IMG/VR virus record: IMGVR_UViG_3300042292_001325
Location: 1 to 39,120 of that record
Reading direction: 5' to 3' (one strand)
Source of the DNA: a virus
Length of the DNA stretch: 39,120 bases
Position 1 is the stretch's first letter. Each line of letters begins with the position of its first letter. Below, in pieces: positions 3,449 through 34,797 of the stretch. Position numbers and translations under genes: made by a program. The notes under the pieces were generated by a model, which was given only the letters and a program-made list of their open reading frames with translations, did no database searches and had not been told where the DNA came from.

Positions 3449-3484
3449 TTGCCTAATAAAAACAGATAGTGTATTATATTACAC
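3449..3484 (+). promoter_or_regulatory. Rightward promoter overlapping dyad operator site A
   Basis: TTGCCT at 3449-3454, a 17-base spacer, and TATTAT at 3472-3477. The -10 box lies inside the near-palindrome GTGTATTATATTACAC (3469-3484). The same 16 bases recur at 29240 and 31342. A transcript would start near 3484, make the 29-residue ORF and continue antisense into the holin genes. Confidence 0.6.
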
Positions 3485-3504: not shown

Positions 3505-3594
3505 ATGTTTTACGCGAAAGAAGTTTGGGAATGGTTAACTGGAATGGTTACAGAAAAAGAAGATTTAAGCTATTTGGATGAAATTTGTTTTTAG
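3505..3594 (+). CDS. 29-residue protein of unknown function
   Basis: ATG at 3505 with a perfect AGGAGG (3495-3500) four bases upstream and its own promoter. The product, MFYAKEVWEWLTGMVTEKED..., is short, amphipathic and Trp/Glu-rich, with no signal peptide. Its stop codon overlaps by four bases the stop of the leftward holin-like gene, so the two genes collide tail to tail. The strength of the SD and promoter argues that it is a real gene despite its size. I cannot assign a function. Possibilities are a small regulator of lysis acting at the membrane, or simply a leader on an antisense RNA. Confidence 0.6.
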   Translation: MFYAKEVWEWLTGMVTEKEDLSYLDEICF

Positions 3595-3839
3595 TCTTTT
3601 TTGATTTGACGAAGATTAAGTATTGTCGATAACTTTTGTGTTAAACGTATCATGTCATTATCAAGTACACGAATCTGGTCAATTAGCTCAACAAGGACGT
3701 TGTACGCTTGTTCAAGAATGGGCTTTGCGGTTGTTGTTGCCCATATCCACACGAAATAAACGATATATCCCATGCCACCTGCGGCAACAATTGGGAAACC
3801 GTATGTGTTGATATATTTTGCAATTGCGACAGTGTCCAT
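3591..3839 (-). CDS. Small membrane protein, holin-like (BhlA/YvrJ-type layout), copy 1
   Basis: 82 residues: a short N-terminus, one hydrophobic segment at about residues 14-35 beginning with YGFPI, then a helical coiled-coil-like tail (EQAYNVLVELIDQIRVLDND). The GFPI start of the membrane helix followed by a charged helix is typical of the BhlA/UviB/YvrJ holin-like group. It is the last gene of the late tail operon and a likely paralogue of the next gene upstream (see findings), from which it is separated by a single overlapping base. Holins form the membrane lesions that let a signal-less endolysin such as the GH24 lysozyme at 38344 reach the cell wall. Function is inferred from topology and position. 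Confidence 0.6.
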   Translation of the reverse strand: MDTVAIAKYINTYGFPIVAAGGMGYIVYFVWIWATTTAKPILEQAYNVLVELIDQIRVLDNDMIRLTQKLSTILNLRQIKKD

Positions 3840-23108: not shown

Positions 23109-23130
23109 AAAATTCCTTATGGTTTAAAGT

Positions 23131-23232
23131 AAAAAACCCACTAACACAGGTGGACGAGAACACTGTGGTAGCGGGTCAGGACGAATCCTTTAGATTAAAT
23201 ACACCTCGTCCGTGCAAATCTAAAAAACTCAA
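23131..23232 (-). ncRNA. Leader RNA with terminator upstream of the TSCPD gene, attenuator candidate
   Basis: From the promoter at 23265-23237 the RNA would start near 23230. It contains GGACGAG (23211-23205), which can pair with TCGTCC (23184-23179), and then a strong hairpin: 23176-23163 with 23149-23136 (12 of 14 pairs) followed by six T. The terminator loop contains CTCGTCC (23158-23152), an alternative partner for the same GGACGAG, so a pseudoknot or switch is possible. No ATG within the ~100-nt RNA. It may be a free small RNA or a 5' leader that controls the gene starting at 23108. Confidence 0.5.
23136..23176 (-). terminator. Rho-independent terminator before the TSCPD gene
   Basis: ACCC-CTA-CACAG arm at 23136-23149 pairs with CTGTG-TAG-GGGT arm at 23163-23176, followed on the leftward strand by TTTTTT (23136-23131). 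Confidence 0.75.
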
Positions 23233-23236
23233 ATCT

Positions 23237-23265
23237 AGTGTAACATATTACAATTTAAGGTTCAA
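23237..23265 (-). promoter_or_regulatory. Leftward promoter overlapping dyad operator site D
   Basis: TTGAAC (23265-23260), 17 bases, TACACT (23242-23237). The near-palindrome GTGTAACATATTACAA (23238-23253) lies in the promoter and matches the other dyad sites at 13 of 16 positions. Geometry is identical to the promoter at 29267-29239. Confidence 0.55.
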
Positions 23266-23266
23266 T

Positions 23267-23296
23267 AAAAAGCCAGAGGGATAAGGCTGGCTTTTT
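23267..23296. terminator. Bidirectional terminator
   Basis: AAAAAGCCAG (23267-23276) and CTGGCTTTTT (23287-23296) form a 10-bp perfect stem with a 10-base loop and T-runs on both strands. It would end the leftward transcript carrying the SNF2 helicase and the 57-residue gene. Confidence 0.85.
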
Positions 23297-23313
23297 AAAG
23301 AAAGGAGAATACT

Positions 23314-23343
23314 ATGCAGGTCACACCTAAACGCTTTTTTTAG
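23314..23343 (+). other. Nine-codon mini-ORF with strong SD, facing the early operon
   Basis: ATG at 23314 with AAAGGAG 7 bases upstream encodes MQVTPKRFF then TAG. It is on the strand opposite to all its neighbours, just after a bidirectional terminator. It could be chance, or a leader-type peptide; no promoter is obvious. Between 23344 and 23454 there is no gene, but a 9-bp inverted repeat (AATGTTTGT 23363-23371, ACAAACATT 23388-23396) and ACACGC/GCGTGT arms. Confidence 0.3.
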
Positions 23344-23454
23344 AGTGGTTCTCGATGCCCTCAATGTTTGTAAAAAGATGAACAAAAACAAACATTTATG
23401 CTAACTGTTTTACCATGTACACGCACCTGTTAGCTGGCGTGTTCGATGTGTAGA

Positions 23455-23628
23455 CTAATCGTCACTGTCATCGCCACAGTCACAAACCTCCGAATATAAA
23501 AACGGAGTTTTGAGGAATTCTTTTGCTAATTTAAAGTCTAAGGATGAATCGAGTATTTCGGAAAAATTGCGATTACCAAAACAGTGCAAATCAAATAAAT
23601 CTTCCTTTGATTTTTTTCGTTCACCCAT
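23455..23628 (-). CDS. Small acidic protein, 57 residues
   Basis: ATG at 23628, reads MGERKKSKEDLFDLHCFGNR, then a helical part with FSEILDSSLDFKLAKEFLK and a C-terminus CDCGDDSDD. Starts 43 bases after the SNF2 helicase gene in the same direction, with AGGTTT near the SD position. The basic start, hydrophobic centre and Cys/Asp tail do not match a family I know. A CTCCG/CGGAG hairpin with a T-run lies in its own last codons on the + strand. Confidence 0.5.
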   Translation of the reverse strand: MGERKKSKEDLFDLHCFGNRNFSEILDSSLDFKLAKEFLKTPFLYSEVCDCGDDSDD

Positions 23629-25012: not shown

Positions 25013-25299
25013 TAAATACTCAGTTCAAGTTGGGTTAAGAGAACATCAACAGCAGATAGGCTATCAATGACGTAAACATCAATATTAAAATTTCGTCTTC
25101 GCTCATGGTCGGCTAATTGTCCTGCATTGGGTGTTTTTCCAGTGGCTTTACACTCAACAAACAAAACCTTGTTCGGTAGCGTTATCATCCTGTCGGGTTT
25201 GTTTCTACCTGACGGTGATGTGAATTTCTCACAAAGCCAATTACGTTTTTTACAGCTATCAACTAAATACTTTTCAATTTTACTCTCAAGCATAATCAA
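25012..25299 (-). CDS. VRR-NUC domain nuclease
   Basis: 95 residues. Core of the PD-(D/E)XK fold: GRNKPDRMITLP (PD) followed after a strand by VLFVECKATG (E-x-K), then PNAGQLADHERRR, the Q-x3-H helix typical of VRR-NUC. Such small phage nucleases are structure-specific and act at Holliday or replication intermediates. It overlaps the polymerase C-terminal gene by 14 bases and the SNF2 helicase by one. Confidence 0.85.
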   Translation of the reverse strand: MIMLESKIEKYLVDSCKKRNWLCEKFTSPSGRNKPDRMITLPNKVLFVECKATGKTPNAGQLADHERRRNFNIDVYVIDSLSAVDVLLTQLELSI

Positions 25300-26095
25300 T
25301 TCCCGTCAATTTGCATAATTTGATTGCTTCAGCGATATAGTAATCATAGTTTATATCGTCAGGCAGGGTGTCTGGTAATTCCATTAATGGACGACATCCT
25401 TGTGACATTGGAACTTTATTTCCATTTTTTGCATAAATCAGAGATGAGTTTAATAAAGATATATCGTCACTGTGATAAAAACGAACGGCTTTTCCTAGAT
25501 ATTTTCCATTAAATAAAGAACCGCCTGTTACATTACGAATCGTTATAAATTTTCTAATATCACGACAAGTAGTTATTGTGTTTACAATAGAAATACCTTT
25601 AGCGACATATTGAGCAACAGATTCATATATTATTAAATTATTTGGATTTTTACTTAAAGATGCTTCACCAAAACACCCTTTACATTTTGTTTTTCCATCC
25701 AATTTAACAGCAATATAATTGTTCACATCACGAGAAGCTATTTCTCGATAATCGGTTCTTTCTAAATTATAACCTGTGGTTTTTTCCCAATCTTGAATTA
25801 AATCATTTAACAGCTTAAGTTTCTCTTTGTGATAGCGCATAACAATACCGTCAGTGTTAGCACTTACAACTTTTATATTGTTTTCCTCAAGATTTTCAAT
25901 CAACATTAATAATGACAACTGCCCTGTTATTGTAGTTTGTAACAATAAATTAGGGGAATATAAAAAACTATATTTACTGCCAAATTTTCCAAACGAACCG
26001 TTGGTCGCCACCTTAAGTGTAGCTGCTGTCACTTCGCATTCAGCCAGTTCTTTTTCCAATTCATTTATTCTTTGTTCAATTTCTCTTTTTTCCAT
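25286..26095 (-). CDS. Family B DNA polymerase, C-terminal part (fingers P-helix, motifs B and C)
   Basis: 269 residues. Opens with a charged helix (EIEQRINELEKELAECEVT), then motif B K28-x3-N32 in LKVATNGSFGKFG and motif C as SANTDG (T81-D82), where the first Asp of the usual DTD is Asn. It then contains the thumb region. There is no exonuclease and no motif A; these are in the gene at 26839. The ATG is the last possible start, since a stop codon lies immediately upstream in frame. GGGGA five bases before the ATG acts as SD, and the start lies inside the end of the homing endonuclease gene, so translation is coupled to it. Together with the N-terminal part it would give about 626 residues. 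Confidence 0.85.
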   Translation of the reverse strand: MEKREIEQRINELEKELAECEVTAATLKVATNGSFGKFGSKYSFLYSPNLLLQTTITGQLSLLMLIENLEENNIKVVSANTDGIVMRYHKEKLKLLNDLIQDWEKTTGYNLERTDYREIASRDVNNYIAVKLDGKTKCKGCFGEASLSKNPNNLIIYESVAQYVAKGISIVNTITTCRDIRKFITIRNVTGGSLFNGKYLGKAVRFYHSDDISLLNSSLIYAKNGNKVPMSQGCRPLMELPDTLPDDINYDYYIAEAIKLCKLTGIDYA

Positions 26096-26805
26096 TTAAA
26101 TCCCCGATAAGTTGGTTTATATCCGTTACATACAGAATATATATTTTGCCATTTCCATGTTGGGTTTGAAAATAAAATATCCTCAACTGAACCCCAAGTT
26201 TTTATAAAATTATCATTTAAATCATATTGATGAAACATATATTGTCGTTTGGCTAATTTTACTTTTTCAGCCATTTGCATTCTTTTATCTTTATCTTTCC
26301 ATATTAATGTTGAGTTAATTGAGCTTTTAGCTTTCCATTCTGCACCGTAATATAAACCTGATTTGTGCCTTTCTTTTGCTATTTCACTCATTCTTTGTTT
26401 TTGAGCATCCGACCATTTGTTTTTGTAGTTAGGGTTGTTTTCACCTTTATTTGACATTGACTTAATTAATTTTGTTTCATCGCTCACTGTTGTTTTAGTA
26501 GAAGAATCTCGTCTTAAATTGTATCCAAACCCCCTATCACATGAGTTATAGAAATCCATCCAATATAATTCTTTATTTTTTAAATCACCTTCAGATATTG
26601 ATTGAAATTCTTCCAATAGAACAAAATCAAAATTTCCAATTCCGTATTTTTTTACTGCGCTAAACAAATGTCGATTACAATCCTTCCTCCTTGTTTCGCG
26701 TTTTAAATCGCATTTATGTGCTGAAAATCGTTTTTTTACATTTCGACTTTTACCGACATATCGTTTATTGTCAACTTTACACACAATCGCATAAATAGCT
26801 ATCAT
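26065..26805 (-). CDS. GIY-YIG homing endonuclease with NUMOD3 and NUMOD1-type DNA-binding motifs
   Basis: 246 residues. N-terminal GIY-YIG domain: IAIYAIV and KRYVGKS (GIY and YIG strands), the Arg helix NVKKRFSAHKC, YGIGNFDF, and the Glu in LKNKELYWMDFY. Near residue 118 GENNPNYKNKWSDAQKQRMS is a NUMOD3 motif. The end (FHQYDLNDNFIKTWGSVEDI, then NIYSVCNGYKPTYRGFKWK) is a NUMOD1-like helix-turn-helix. It lies between the two parts of the polymerase gene. It has its own AGGAGGT five bases before the ATG. ATCCTA and TAGGAT flank that SD as inverted arms and could sequester it. Only about 33 bases separate it from the upstream exon and it overlaps the downstream one, so there is no room for a group I intron. 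Confidence 0.9.
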   Translation of the reverse strand: MIAIYAIVCKVDNKRYVGKSRNVKKRFSAHKCDLKRETRRKDCNRHLFSAVKKYGIGNFDFVLLEEFQSISEGDLKNKELYWMDFYNSCDRGFGYNLRRDSSTKTTVSDETKLIKSMSNKGENNPNYKNKWSDAQKQRMSEIAKERHKSGLYYGAEWKAKSSINSTLIWKDKDKRMQMAEKVKLAKRQYMFHQYDLNDNFIKTWGSVEDILFSNPTWKWQNIYSVCNGYKPTYRGFKWKKEKLNKE

Positions 26806-26838
26806 CCTACCTCCTAAATAAAATAATAGGATAATACC

Positions 26839-27912
26839 TTATAACTCTAATTGCAATTTTAATTTTTTTAATTCTTTTTCTATTTCCAAACTTCTTTTTT
26901 TAGCTAAAGTTCGTCTAGTAACAATAGATTTGTATAATTCTAAAAAGTTTACACCTATGCTTTCTGGGTATAAACCTTGTTGCATTATTATGTTTGGATA
27001 AAATCCCGTGACATCTTGTTCACATAAGTGATAATCATTATCGTTTTTAATATGTTGTGCTTTTTCACAAGAATGTATTCCACCAATACCCATTTGATAA
27101 ACGGTTGTACCTATAGTAATGCGTTCTCCAAGCCAATCAGGACAAATAATCGAACCGTTTTCAGCAAGTTTAAATTCCTCTTTAAGCAAACGATTAAAAA
27201 TTAAATTTAGTTCATGTGATTTAAATTTAATTATTTTAGGGTCGGTATATTTAAATATATGATTGTCAGCGTAATTTTTTGCTTTAAATTTATTAATTGG
27301 AATGTTATATGTTTTTTGCATTTCAGATTTAATTATTGCTTCTGCAATTTGCGCATCTGATTTTGAATTCAGATTAATGCCATATTGTTCTGTCATGTCT
27401 TCACGCAATTCAATTTGTTTGCGAACTTTATAAAATATCAATCGTGTATTATCAACGTCATTTTCACAGTATTGACGTAAATTAGAAATATCGCTTTCTT
27501 TGATTGTTGCACTAGGTTCAATTGGCAAATCTTGCATTTTTTTACAATGTAAACGTCCAGCATAAATCTTTAATGAAGATTGACCAATGGGGATATTGAT
27601 AATATCAATATGGTCACATGGCAGATTATGATATTTTCGAGCTTGGTTAACAATGATGTCATCACTTAAGGCTTTTAACTGTTCGTTAGTAAAGCCATTT
27701 AAAAAGGCTTCTACCATAGGCATATCGTAAGACAAACCGTTAAACGATACGAATGTTCGCGTTTTTGATTTAAGTGCTTTAGCAAGCATTATGGTATCAG
27801 GACGTTTATCGTTGAACATTTCCCAATAATGAACTTTGCCTTCTTCATTTTTAACAAGAACAAGAAAGTAATTTTTGTAGCATTCAGTGTCGATAAAGAT
27901 TAATTTTTGCAT
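26839..27912 (-). CDS. Family B DNA polymerase, N-terminal part (3'-5' exonuclease and motif A)
   Basis: 357 residues. Exonuclease motifs: Exo I D8-x-E10 in FIDTECYK, Exo II N58...D63 in SFNGLSYDMP, Exo III Y148-x3-D152 in YCENDVDNT. Polymerase motif A is D300-VTGFYPNII. After motif A comes the fingers N-helix (LYKSIVTRRTLAKKRSLEIE, then KELKKLKLQLEL) and a stop. Motifs B and C are missing here and lie in the gene at 25286. The break falls between the two antiparallel helices of the fingers domain, at a position that could allow the two products to reassemble through those charged helices. It follows the SSB gene after a terminator-like hairpin. Confidence 0.88.
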   Translation of the reverse strand: MQKLIFIDTECYKNYFLVLVKNEEGKVHYWEMFNDKRPDTIMLAKALKSKTRTFVSFNGLSYDMPMVEAFLNGFTNEQLKALSDDIIVNQARKYHNLPCDHIDIINIPIGQSSLKIYAGRLHCKKMQDLPIEPSATIKESDISNLRQYCENDVDNTRLIFYKVRKQIELREDMTEQYGINLNSKSDAQIAEAIIKSEMQKTYNIPINKFKAKNYADNHIFKYTDPKIIKFKSHELNLIFNRLLKEEFKLAENGSIICPDWLGERITIGTTVYQMGIGGIHSCEKAQHIKNDNDYHLCEQDVTGFYPNIIMQQGLYPESIGVNFLELYKSIVTRRTLAKKRSLEIEKELKKLKLQLEL

Positions 27913-27973: not shown

Positions 27974-28531
27974 TTAAAAAGGAAAATCTTCATCTTCAAT
28001 ATCAGATGACGCTTCCACTTCTTCAAAATCATCAATGTTTACAGGTGCTGCACCAAAACGTTCACCTTCACGGACAAATTGAATTGCTTGAAGATTGACG
28101 TTTACTTTTTTACCAAAAGCGTTGTCTTGCACCCAATAATCAATTTTTGCATTAACGTAATCACCAGAAAATATAATTTCATCTTCTTCGGCAATAGCTT
28201 TTTTGCGCTGGTCAATGATTATTGGTTTTCTTGTAGAAGCGGCTTTGAGATACATTTGGTTTTCATAACCATCGTAATCTTGGGTATCACCATCTTTTAA
28301 TGGTAAAACAATTGATTTTGGCACTTTACCCGCACCAAATTTATCGATTGAGGCTTGCTGGCTTGATTGTTTTAGCATTGCTATAACTTCAGCGTGTTCA
28401 TTTTTGTCAAGAAGAAGTGTGGCGGCATATTTGCCAATTGTAACTGTGCCATCAGGGTTCTTGAACGTTTCTTTTTTAAATAAATGCGCAAAAGATAAAC
28501 GAACATTTTTTAAAATAATTGAATCAGCCAT
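27974..28531 (-). CDS. SSB-like single-stranded DNA-binding protein (DUF2815)
   Basis: 185 residues. N-terminal MADSIILKNVRLSFAHLFKK and GKYAATLLLDKNEHAEVIAM are typical of DUF2815 proteins, which have an OB-like fold; AKIDYWVQDNAFGKKVNVNL follows. The tail is acidic and ends DIEDEDFPF, which resembles the acidic C-terminal tip of bacterial SSB used to recruit partners. SD AAGGA seven bases before the ATG, itself behind an AT-rich 8-bp repeat. Coats ssDNA during replication; its partners here would be the split polymerase, helicase and VRR-NUC nuclease encoded downstream. Confidence 0.85.
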   Translation of the reverse strand: MADSIILKNVRLSFAHLFKKETFKNPDGTVTIGKYAATLLLDKNEHAEVIAMLKQSSQQASIDKFGAGKVPKSIVLPLKDGDTQDYDGYENQMYLKAASTRKPIIIDQRKKAIAEEDEIIFSGDYVNAKIDYWVQDNAFGKKVNVNLQAIQFVREGERFGAAPVNIDDFEEVEASSDIEDEDFPF

Positions 28532-28543
28532 TTTAGTTTCCTT

Positions 28544-28583
28544 ATGAATTTAGTAATTTAGTAATTTAATAATTTAGTAATTT
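28544..28583. repeat. 8-bp tandem repeat upstream of the SSB-like gene
   Basis: Five units of (A)(G/A/T)(T/G)AATTT: ATGAATTT, AGTAATTT, AGTAATTT, AATAATTT, AGTAATTT. On the mRNA it is an unstructured A/U-rich stretch between the structured leader and the SD, a possible ribosome standby or S1-binding site. Confidence 0.8.
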
Positions 28584-28584
28584 A

Positions 28585-29232
28585 TGGAGCATATTTGCTC
28601 AAATTGATAGTTGTCGGTGCTGATCTCCGACTTGTGGTGCTGTTTAACACACGCTTACTCTTTCGAGATAGTTACTCCTACAGTAACACTCCACTAGGCT
28701 TTTGGGCTTCTACCCCGTTCCATAGCGTATCAGCCTACGCATTTAACTATCAATAATCAACTCTCTTACTTATACATTTCGATACGTTGTACACCGTACT
28801 CTACCTGCGTCTTGAGCCAACCCGATTAGTCGATTCCAACATCGCCAATCCTTTATGCTGGTTCACGTTTGGATTCTTGCCAGCCAAGGTTGTCAATTCT
28901 TCGTAAAGTTGATTATTGATAGTGCTGTCTTTCCAGCAGTCACCAGTCCACTTGCTACGCATAAGCTGGTTCGATGCGCTCCTATCTTATTTAATTCCCG
29001 ATAGGCTAAGGAAATTTGATAGTGTAGCTGATTAGGCTCTCTTAGCGCACGTTATCATCGTGACAAAACTATCAAGAATGGCGATTTCTAAAGGACTTTA
29101 ACCTTCCTATGCAGACCCTATCCACAAGTTCCCAGTGAACAGCCAATCGCCATTATTGATAGCACTCGTCTATTCCGAGTCGTCAATTAATTTTTAAGGT
29201 ATTAATCCAACCTTGATGGGGATATTTTATGA
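28585..29232 (-). ncRNA. Large structured non-coding region (~650 nt), candidate structured RNA or leader of SSB
   Basis: No ORF of note on either strand, and base composition richer in G+C than the neighbours. It is packed with inverted repeats: 28746-28762 pairs with 28907-28923 (17 bp perfect); 29069-29086 pairs with 29145-29162 (17 of 18 with one G-A mismatch); 28604-28612 with 28745-28753; 29016-29023 with 29068-29075; 28981-28986 with 29000-29005; GAGCA/TGCTC at 28587-28600. The octamer TTGATAGT or its complement occurs six times. On the leftward strand a CTC-GAAA-GAG tetraloop and a GTTACT/AGTAAC hairpin are visible. It begins at the promoter 29267-29239 and runs up to the SSB gene. 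Confidence 0.6.
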
Positions 29233-29238
29233 ATGCTT

Positions 29239-29267
29239 AGTGTATTATATTACACAAACACTGTCAA
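29239..29267 (-). promoter_or_regulatory. Leftward promoter overlapping dyad operator site B
   Basis: TTGACA (29267-29262), 17 bases, TACACT (29244-29239), overlapping GTGTATTATATTACAC (29240-29255). It lies immediately downstream of the DUF2800 stop and would start the RNA near 29232. Confidence 0.65.
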
Positions 29268-31341: not shown

Positions 31342-31357
31342 GTGTATTATATTACAC
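31342..31357. promoter_or_regulatory. Dyad operator site C in the divergent early region
   Basis: GTGTATTATATTACAC lies midway between the leftward 230-residue gene (start 31312) and the rightward HTH gene (start 31392). -10-like hexamers occur on both strands (TATTAT, TATAAT). Clear -35 boxes are not visible at 17 bp on either side, so exact promoters are uncertain. Confidence 0.6.
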
Positions 31358-34077: not shown

Positions 34078-34681
34078 TGTCACACCTTGTGTCACACCTA
34101 AAATTTTGCTGTGACACACCTACAGACCTTTGTATATAAGGCTTTTAGGATTTTTTGTCACAGCAAAACGCAATTTAAGAAAAAATGTTTTTTAATATTT
34201 GAAGTTATTTTTCAGCTAAAACAGTGTGACAAAAGCAAAAATTAAGAAAATTTTATTAGAAAAAAAGTTATGTTTTTTTGACTTTTTTACGCATTTTTTC
34301 GATAAAATTCCAAAAAATAAATTCTCCAAAATAAATTTTGCATAGCTCCAATTTTTGCTTGAAAGCCTTATTTTAGGCTATTTGTCACAGCAAAATGTAA
34401 AAAGTGTCACAGCAAAAATTTTAGGTGTGACACCCCTCTATCCCTTTATATATCTACCTTTCTATATACTTTTGTCACACTGTCACAGATAAATAAGAAA
34501 AAGTAATATAAAGTAAGAAAAAATAGAAAATAGAGTATATAAAAATACACATATACACATACATTTCGTATCACATATAAAGGCTTTTTCTCATTTCTGG
34601 TGTTCCATGTGACACTAAGTGCTTCAAAGCCACGTCACTATTGGGCTAGAAGGGTGTCACAGTATAAAATGTGGTATGACA
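34078..34681. other. Candidate replication origin: AT-rich region with TGTCACA iterons
   Basis: No gene between 34006 and 34797. TGTCACA or its complement TGTGACA occurs at least twelve times: 34078, 34090, 34110, 34156, 34225, 34383, 34405, 34426, 34473, 34481, 34608, 34655 (starts). The longest form, TGTCACAGCAAAA, is present exactly at 34156, 34383 and 34405 and inverted at 34104-34116. The spacing is irregular and both orientations occur. Between them lie long A/T runs, especially 34190-34360 and 34490-34570, that could melt easily. Position just behind the primase-helicase gene fits a self-encoded initiator. Confidence 0.6.
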
Positions 34682-34797
34682 AACCGTTAAAACTTCCTTT
34701 TTTTAAAGTTTTTTGATAAAATCTATTTGCCGTCAAAATTTCCTTAATGGCGATTTATCAATATGGCGGCATTTTTTTAACCTGACGAGTAAAAATT

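Follow-up and report, generated by a model that had tools for sequence, protein, structure and literature searches.

GOLLD and ROOL, which form nanocages with disordered variable linkers inside, are large structured RNAs of phages and prophages: GOLLD combines conserved and variable parts, often lies near tRNA genes and sometimes carries tRNAs inside its variable part, and the ornate ROOL is found near tRNA islands (PMC12286853). HEARO and the IscB-IsrB omega RNAs, and OLE, are further large structured bacterial RNAs. The Pas sRNA genes occupy lambdoid neighbourhoods near TerB, Q and holin/lysozyme genes (PMC13192938), and phage tRNA arrays include the T5 tRNAs that act against PARIS AriB (PMC12409363). 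Here we describe a virus locus that apparently encodes a member of an undescribed RNA family, found by sequence comparison across many unrelated bacterial viruses, P1 included.

The window, by which we mean the whole stretch of DNA that was analysed, is a 39,120-nt IMG/VR virus contig whose proteins resemble those of gammaproteobacterial phages, for example Pseudoalteromonas PHS21. The stretch under study, 28587-29267 on the minus strand, has a DUF2800/PD-(D/E)XK exonuclease as its upstream neighbour and, as the initial annotation stated, ends just before an SSB gene. That annotation also held it to be non-coding, and an ORF check revealed no substantial ORF over its length. Its GC content is 42%, compared with 37% in the window. 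The folding z-score is -2.96 on the minus strand and -2.50 on the plus strand; because these values are similar, folding energy alone does not support a choice of strand. A search for an intrinsic terminator between the stretch and the SSB gene found none. The parts, in the order in which they would be transcribed, are as follows.

29239-29267, minus: sigma-70-like promoter TTGACA-17-TACACT overlapping the operator GTGTAATATAATACAC (29240-29255); same place in L003 and L004
29196-29214, minus: leader hairpin H0, AAGGU-UGGAUUAAU-ACCUU, from sequence comparison
29164-29181, minus: unit 1 connector hairpin H1, ACUCG-GAAUAGA-CGAGU; seven different arm pairs family-wide, all fully paired
29145-29163, minus: unit 1 strand 1 with the domain A 5' arm, GCUAUCAAUAAUGGCGAUU, from stem pairing
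29068-29144, minus: unit 1 domain A, type A16, with 3' arm AAUCGCCAUUCUUGAUAG as strand 2, from comparison
29024-29067, minus: unit 1 B-slot module, UUUGUCACGAUGAUAACGUGCGCUAAGAGAGCCUAAUCAGCUAC, from comparison
29016-29023, minus: unit 1 strand 3, ACUAUCAA, complementary to strand 2
28942-29015, minus: inter-unit connector (...GAUAGGAGCGCAUCGAACCAGCUUAUGCGUAGCAAGUGGACUGGU), also between the two units of L160
28923-28939, minus: unit 2 connector hairpin H1, UGCUG-GAAAGA-CAGCA, which together with ACUAUCAAU is identical in L004 (28/28)
28746-28922, minus: unit 2 domain A, type A2, closed by a 17-bp perfect stem between strand 1 (28907-28923) and strand 2 (28746-28762)
28725-28740, minus: core hairpin H2, GCGU-AGGCUGAU-ACGC, from family comparison
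28631-28724, minus: domain B, type B1, carrying the GNRA hairpin CUCGAAAGAG; at least 10 other contigs have a near-identical copy
28614-28630, minus: core hairpin H3, UCGG-AGAUCAGCA-CCGA, with a compensatory change in L003
28603-28612, minus: strand 3, AACUAUCAAU, complementary to strand 2, UUGAUAGUU
28587-28600, minus: terminal hairpin GAGCA-AAUA-UGCUC
27974-28531, minus: gene for a Gp2.5/Enc34-like ssDNA-binding protein (PHROG 112, PF10991), directly downstream of the RNA

The two long stems reported by the initial annotation are both there, with 17/17 positions paired in 28746-28762/28907-28923 and 17/18 in 29069-29086/29145-29162, as is a GAAA tetraloop hairpin on the leftward strand (CUCGAAAGAG, minus strand, about 28662-28671). 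Its six octamer copies reduce to five exact matches to ACTATCAA/TTGATAGT (28604, 28746, 28916, 29016 and 29068); the sixth, 29156-29162, agrees at only 7/8 positions and reads CTATCAA preceded by G. Exact copies of the octamer number 7 in the whole window, against 1.8 expected from shuffles. The leader hairpin has a counterpart in L118, ACGAU-UGGAUUAAC-AUCGU, that is, a covarying stem with a similar loop.

The proposed TTGACA-17-TACACT promoter sequence is present at 29267-29239 on the minus strand, but promoter-like sites are about as numerous in the window as in shuffles. The palindrome GTGTAATATAATACAC overlaps it in the manner of an operator-controlled promoter, as had been claimed, and this putative arrangement is kept in the relatives L003 and L004. 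Three exact copies of the palindrome occur in the window (3469-3484, 29240-29255 and 31342-31357), all intergenic, and a degenerate copy, likewise intergenic, lies at 23238-23253. A scan returned 8 strand-wise matches where 0.7 were expected, and the palindromic operator likely marks a phage-wide regulon.

Other features of the window were also recorded. A second non-coding stretch, at 23110-23530 on the minus strand (10050-10410 in L003, 9290-9640 in L004), lies downstream of an SNF2 helicase gene and is kept across phages that are otherwise divergent. Its 3' part, which comes after the degenerate operator copy, reads GGACGAGG...CTCGTCC and has a terminator stem, CCCGCTACCACAG/CTGTGTTAGTGGG, with compensating changes among the three copies and no Rfam match at gathering thresholds. 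A phage PolB-like polymerase (25286-27912, minus strand) is split into ORFs of 357 aa and 269 aa with a GIY-YIG homing endonuclease ORF, 26065-26805, between the halves; in L004 the polymerase is one ORF of 621 aa. At 34731-34770 a conserved GGCGATTTATCAAT sits within hairpins, and is also found upstream of the RNA in L123, L151, L157, L158 and others, on stems that are wholly different between phages (ACCAACCAACCCAG/CTGGGTTGGTTGGT and CAAGCACATCACAGT/ACTGTGGTGTGCTTG are examples), which makes it another covarying element. Repeats around TGTCACACC/TGTGACA (34089-34137 and 34404-34453), in a long AT-rich gap after the primase gene, are a possible replication origin.

Two IMG/VR contigs, L003 and L004, have the same locus as the window. 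The SSB of L003 is 97% identical, and its RNA stretch lacks exactly 240 nt between two CTATCAATAAT repeats (window 28912-28922 and 29152-29162). What remains still has a consistent fold (z -2.56), and the H3 stem has changed from UCGG/CCGA to CCGG/CCGG, a compensatory substitution. L004, with an SSB 86% identical, retains the promoter with its operator, along with a 28-nt hairpin-plus-ACTATCAAT identical to that of the window; the surrounding sequence differs and a small ORF is present. In a survey of 80 loci with SSB homologues, only L003 and L004 had a long non-coding gap next to SSB, and the RNA is therefore not tied to that gene. In most other SSB relatives the gap between exonuclease and SSB is 3-95 nt; in L023 and L025 a 204-aa ORF occupies it, and a few loci end at a contig edge. 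Judged from these alignments, the RNA is an extra at the SSB locus and not part of the SSB gene.

A blastn search of phages and plasmids with the whole 724-nt region yielded nothing useful because its domains are too mosaic; searches with single pieces worked. An 18-mer from domain B, GGAACGGGGTAGAAGCCC, matched 12 viral contigs, and the eleven other than L003 share up to 160 nt around it with the window at 93-100% identity and differ in upstream sequence. Two degenerate junction patterns recovered 70 and 62 contigs, a later pattern scan at least 120, and cultured phages were reached through weak blast matches with other modules. Conserved-piece searches of IMG/VR contigs and cultured phages place the family at no fewer than about 128 loci. 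The cultured carriers are P1, mEp460, HK633, CUS-3, KP591P1, IME207, CASP1, KlebP_265, AH02 and cp21, to which one E. coli plasmid and one E. albertii plasmid can be added, and a B-like module adjoins tRNA-Asn in an Erwinia jumbo phage. Of 50,697 phage records searched by blast with the P1 stretch, 158 gave a match, mostly annotated "none" or "hypothetical protein"; the core is not in all of these, and some match a single P1 domain only. Two exact patterns, specific to one hairpin and one B type, had 0 matches in GTDB genomes.

The genomic settings of the copies vary. The RNA lies between SSB and polymerase in L118, between primase and terminase in L158, L135 and L175, and between terminase and portal in L160; it adjoins tRNA arrays in L140 and L146, and in P1 and the Klebsiella phages it is beside tRNA genes. 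In HK633 and CUS-3 it follows Q and precedes the holin gene, and PR' is annotated in HK633. Proximity to tRNA genes is a weak tendency (among the units listed, 24 of 136 cores are within 1.5 kb, compared with 11% of random positions in the same loci). Most copies are co-oriented with neighbouring genes, and homing endonucleases occur near some of them (L124, L143). At about 3530-3715, where its array ends, L158 has a further structured RNA that stands apart: CTATCACTAAAAGCA...TGCTTTTAGTGATAG close this module, its interior is akin to domain A6, and its beginning is found after the core in L118, L120 and L126 as well.

Side-by-side comparison of the contigs found with the degenerate patterns revealed a common unit plan, which reads 5' to 3': H1 (loop GGAAAGAC), strand 1 (CTATCAA), domain A, strand 2 (TTGATAGTT), H2, domain B, H3 and strand 3 (AACTATCAA). 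The comparison shows a conserved core whose strands 2 and 3 pair with each other and whose H2 loop is complementary to its H3 loop, with domain A upstream on strand 1. The helix of strands 2 and 3 encloses H2 (loop AGGCUGAU), the swappable domain B and H3 (loop AGAUCAGCA); apart from B the core is about 60 nt long, and units in tandem differ in number. The two-unit layout of the window recurs in L160, with the same inter-unit connector.

Pairing of strands 2 and 3 is maintained through extensive sequence change. The 136 units in the 128 loci listed have 66 different helix sequences, mostly of 7-10 bp; UUGAUAGUU/AACUAUCAA, GUUGUGAUGA/UCAUCACAAC, GAUUGGAUG/CAUCCAAUC and ACACAGAAGCGG/CCGCUUCUGUGU are examples. 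Across 49 distinct strand 2 sequences the helix averages 7.7 bp with its own partner and 4.2 bp with swapped partners, a difference reached in 0 of 200 shuffles, and a pattern that did not require strand 3 nonetheless found it after H3 in 43 of 44 distinct copies. The seven different arm pairs of H1 are 100% paired (shuffle mean 71%; 0 of 2000 reach this), and most types of domain A are closed by stems of 17-23 bp with unrelated sequences. Covariation in H2 and H3, which were found by patterns favouring them, is modest: 36 and 54 of 2000 shuffles, respectively, reach the observed value. Since single core fragments folded alone have weak z-scores (-1.1 for the window, -0.7 for P1 and -2.3 for CASP1), the case rests on covariation. 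Homologues with massive covariation support the claim of a structured non-coding RNA made in the initial annotation. The compensatory changes that it proposed to look for in relatives were found; what varies is length, with domains swapped and deleted while the compensatory pairs are conserved.

Complementarity between the loops of H2 (GCUGAU) and H3 (AUCAGC) extends over 6 nt in 116 of the 136 units listed and over 5 nt in the other 20; about 1% of shuffled loops reach 6 nt or more. The pairing is nearly invariant and is therefore evidence of complementarity, not of covariation; from it a kissing loop is predicted. In the window as in P1, strand 1 is identical in sequence to strand 3, so either is able to pair with strand 2. 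The alternative octamer pairings noticed earlier in the window are in this respect a family-wide property, strand 2 being complementary to strand 1 upstream and to strand 3 downstream.

While the core is constant, the domains that it carries are not. Sequence comparison shows that phages have exchanged domains A and B, and have lost them through recombination at short common repeats. Among 56 distinct units there are 17 types of domain A and 14 of domain B, joined in about 30 different A-B pairings. Domain A16 of the window precedes another domain B in L159, and a near-identical copy of the unit 1 B-slot module is nested within domain A in L123, L153 and L158. Nesting is also seen in A3 and A5, which have a common outer stem and different interiors.

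Some of the exchanged domains resemble tRNAs. Domain A of L168 matches the Rfam tRNA model (RF00005) with 35 bits, ARAGORN calls tRNAs in L168 and L175, and domain A is tRNA-like by eye in L141, L152 and L160. A cloverleaf is recognized by Rfam or ARAGORN in some homologous A domains, but not in most, nor in the window. A T-arm-like 17-mer lies upstream of 20 of the 127 cores listed, against 0.7 expected, although at least one of those counted (L190) is the neighbouring tRNA-Thr gene itself. The other A domains have no Rfam match, and as only a minority are tRNA-like, a mimic role for the remainder is conjecture.

Evidence on the strand comes from the character of the mismatches. Domain A stems contain 21 G-U pairs against 7 A-C mismatches, and unpaired positions on the minus strand are A-rich; a flank-based count of G-U and A-C in the strand 2-3 helices is dominated by conserved bases at the junctions and so was uninformative. 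The G-U excess, the A-rich unpaired bases, the co-orientation and the tRNA-like A domains favour an RNA on the minus strand over a DNA element.

The copy in P1 has the same H2 and H3. Its strands 1, 2 and 3 are CACAAC, GTTGTGATGA and TCATCACAAC, where the window has CTATCAA, TTGATAGTT and AACTATCAA. It lies beside tRNA genes, downstream of C1-controlled promoters and upstream of the TerB-like tciA; the reference P1 record places plp and upl here, between tRNA-Thr and tciA, both on the opposite strand. A 196-nt deletion between short repeats distinguishes two P1 records, the same kind of event as that separating the window from L003. A P1vir RNA-seq study (PMC8201110) names upl as one of the genes with raised expression when dksA is mutated, which hints at reads from the region without giving their strand. 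One P1 domain (L190, about 699-755) resembles a stretch of epsilon34 (L200, 1001-1057) between PL and an N-like gene. In phages of the epsilon34 type this is presumably where a nut site would be found, and the likeness is a possible link to antitermination.

From this anatomy, from the indications of an RNA strand and from placement downstream of phage promoters in the window, HK633, CUS-3 and P1, we consider it probable that a phage promoter drives leftward transcription of the stretch into a structured RNA of modular build. Such an RNA would be made as a stable transcript during infection; its core would serve as a rigid scaffold locked by the H2-H3 kissing loop, and strands 1, 2 and 3 would permit branch migration. 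The swappable domains, often tRNA-like, would be displayed as baits or mimics for binding RNA-directed factors of the host, tRNA-cleaving defence nucleases for example, and the known tRNA-cleaving defences (PMC12409363) are a plausible opponent. We favour a bait-displaying scaffold: a pair of exchange slots on an unchanging core, cargo that resembles tRNA, and recombination turnover even between near-identical phages have the look of an arms race. The decoy or mimic function of the domains is put forward tentatively, as the likeliest of the functions considered though less probable than not; if it is true, their rapid swapping would reflect an arms race. More doubtful is the wider proposal of a combinatorial RNA platform in many unrelated phages, with interchangeable baits, tRNA mimics among them, acting as a fast-evolving RNA counter-defence for which P1 would be the model.

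A decoy scaffold can overlap with two close rivals, an assembly resembling GOLLD or ROOL and a leader switch. In the former, copies of the RNA would join through H2-H3 contacts in trans into a cage or ring, with A and B as cargo or interior linkers. The complementary loops exist, and the niche is the same, that of a large phage RNA often beside tRNA genes and sometimes with tRNAs in its variable part (PMC12286853). The small core (about 60 nt plus B) and the varying number of tandem units are nonetheless unlike a cage subunit of fixed size, and neither RF01998 nor any other Rfam model matched at E 10 or E 2, so that we regard such an assembly as rather unlikely. A cis-acting leader, in which strands 1 and 3 compete for strand 2 during synthesis of the RNA and a switch between the two resulting folds controls downstream transcription (by antitermination or attenuation) or translation, would make sense of the identity of strands 1 and 3 in the window and P1, of promoter-proximal sites upstream of SSB here and between Q and holin in HK633 and CUS-3, and of the missing terminator before the SSB gene. 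The non-core P1 module that matches the PL to N-like gene stretch of epsilon34, where we would expect a nut site, points the same way, and a boxA-like GCTCTTTA in L004 keeps the nut/put antitermination idea within this explanation. Against a leader, neighbours are unrelated across phages (SSB/polymerase, primase/terminase, terminase/portal, tRNA arrays), related phages without the RNA before SSB retain the SSB gene, and copies with the same neighbours differ in their domains; we think it unlikely.

The same modules might instead be excised by RNase P or RNase E from a precursor and act as several small RNAs, either base-pairing sRNAs of the Pas kind or unusual tRNAs. The tRNA-like modules are possible RNase P substrates, Pas genes lie in comparable lambdoid neighbourhoods (PMC13192938), and the P1 copy stands upstream of the TerB-like tciA; but selection on long closing stems and a common core argues for an intact assembly, STnc100 is unmatched, and a precursor seems to us improbable. 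Least probable of all is an element acting as DNA, with connectors of 10-30 nt as recombination or insertion sites and stems as DNA hairpins, in a cassette platform or a single-strand origin near SSB. Exact deletions between repeats (window and L003; the two P1 isolates) and connectors that stay identical while their flanks differ speak in its favour. The strand asymmetry of mismatches (G-U 21, A-C 7), the presence on one strand of a GNRA loop and of A-rich unpaired bases, and the T-loops and tRNA folds are evidence to the contrary, and no recombinase was found beside the few copies with annotated neighbours, though homing endonucleases lie near L124 and L143.

The preferred reading, a modular scaffold RNA, has consequences for how phage RNAs are studied. 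Even in phages as familiar as P1, where the region is marked as antisense plp/upl or left blank, a family of large structured RNAs seems to have gone unnoticed, and its carriage by P1, HK633, CUS-3 and several Klebsiella phages makes the role of a large phage RNA, a question shared with GOLLD and ROOL, directly testable in laboratory strains of E. coli. Domain shuffling of this kind is familiar for proteins, and we know of no case for non-coding RNA; the elements shuffled here are independent domains, nested domains and tRNA-like cassettes on a common core.

Comparison with described RNAs did not uphold the resemblance to GOLLD, ROOL or HEARO suggested initially, nor a relation to OLE. An Rfam 15 cmscan with all 4227 models at gathering thresholds, applied to the window, 8 homologue loci and 10 loci of cultured phages and plasmids, found only tRNAs; at E 10 and E 2 there was no GOLLD, ROOL, HEARO or OLE, only chance-level matches. 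We therefore rejected identity with GOLLD (RF01998; unmatched at gathering, E 10 and E 2), ROOL and OLE (covariance models unmatched). Other candidates rejected were HEARO (RF02033; no Rfam match, and flanks that are the DUF2800 exonuclease and the Gp2.5-like SSB), a group I or group II intron (catalytic core unmatched at E 10), a CRISPR-repeat RNA mimic consisting of a hairpin plus 8-nt tail (unit spacing and domain stems do not fit) and an integron attC (GTTGATT does not satisfy GTTRRRY). STnc100, the Rfam relative of PasD, had no match, the cultured phages examined carry no RNA annotation here, and no prior description of this RNA was found in the open-licence literature.

The likeness to GOLLD extends to tRNA-like material within a variable part, here domain A of some relatives, but the sequence is unrelated, the small core lies 3' of a swappable domain, two domains are swapped independently, and units occur in tandem. 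ROOL is one long conserved fold, whereas the window family is a shuffled assembly of variable length. HEARO and OLE differ in their company, no IscB/TnpB-like ORF or OLE partner gene having been noted beside this RNA. Pas RNAs are structured too, but are base-pairing sRNAs, and PasA and PasC are set beside the window family by neighbourhood only. Phage tRNA arrays share its neighbourhood in several phages, tRNA-like domains and a possible decoy role; here, however, the modules are embedded in a large predicted RNA, and most are not tRNAs. Large RNAs of obscure role are already familiar from phages, and among them this one appears to be new as a family and in its design.
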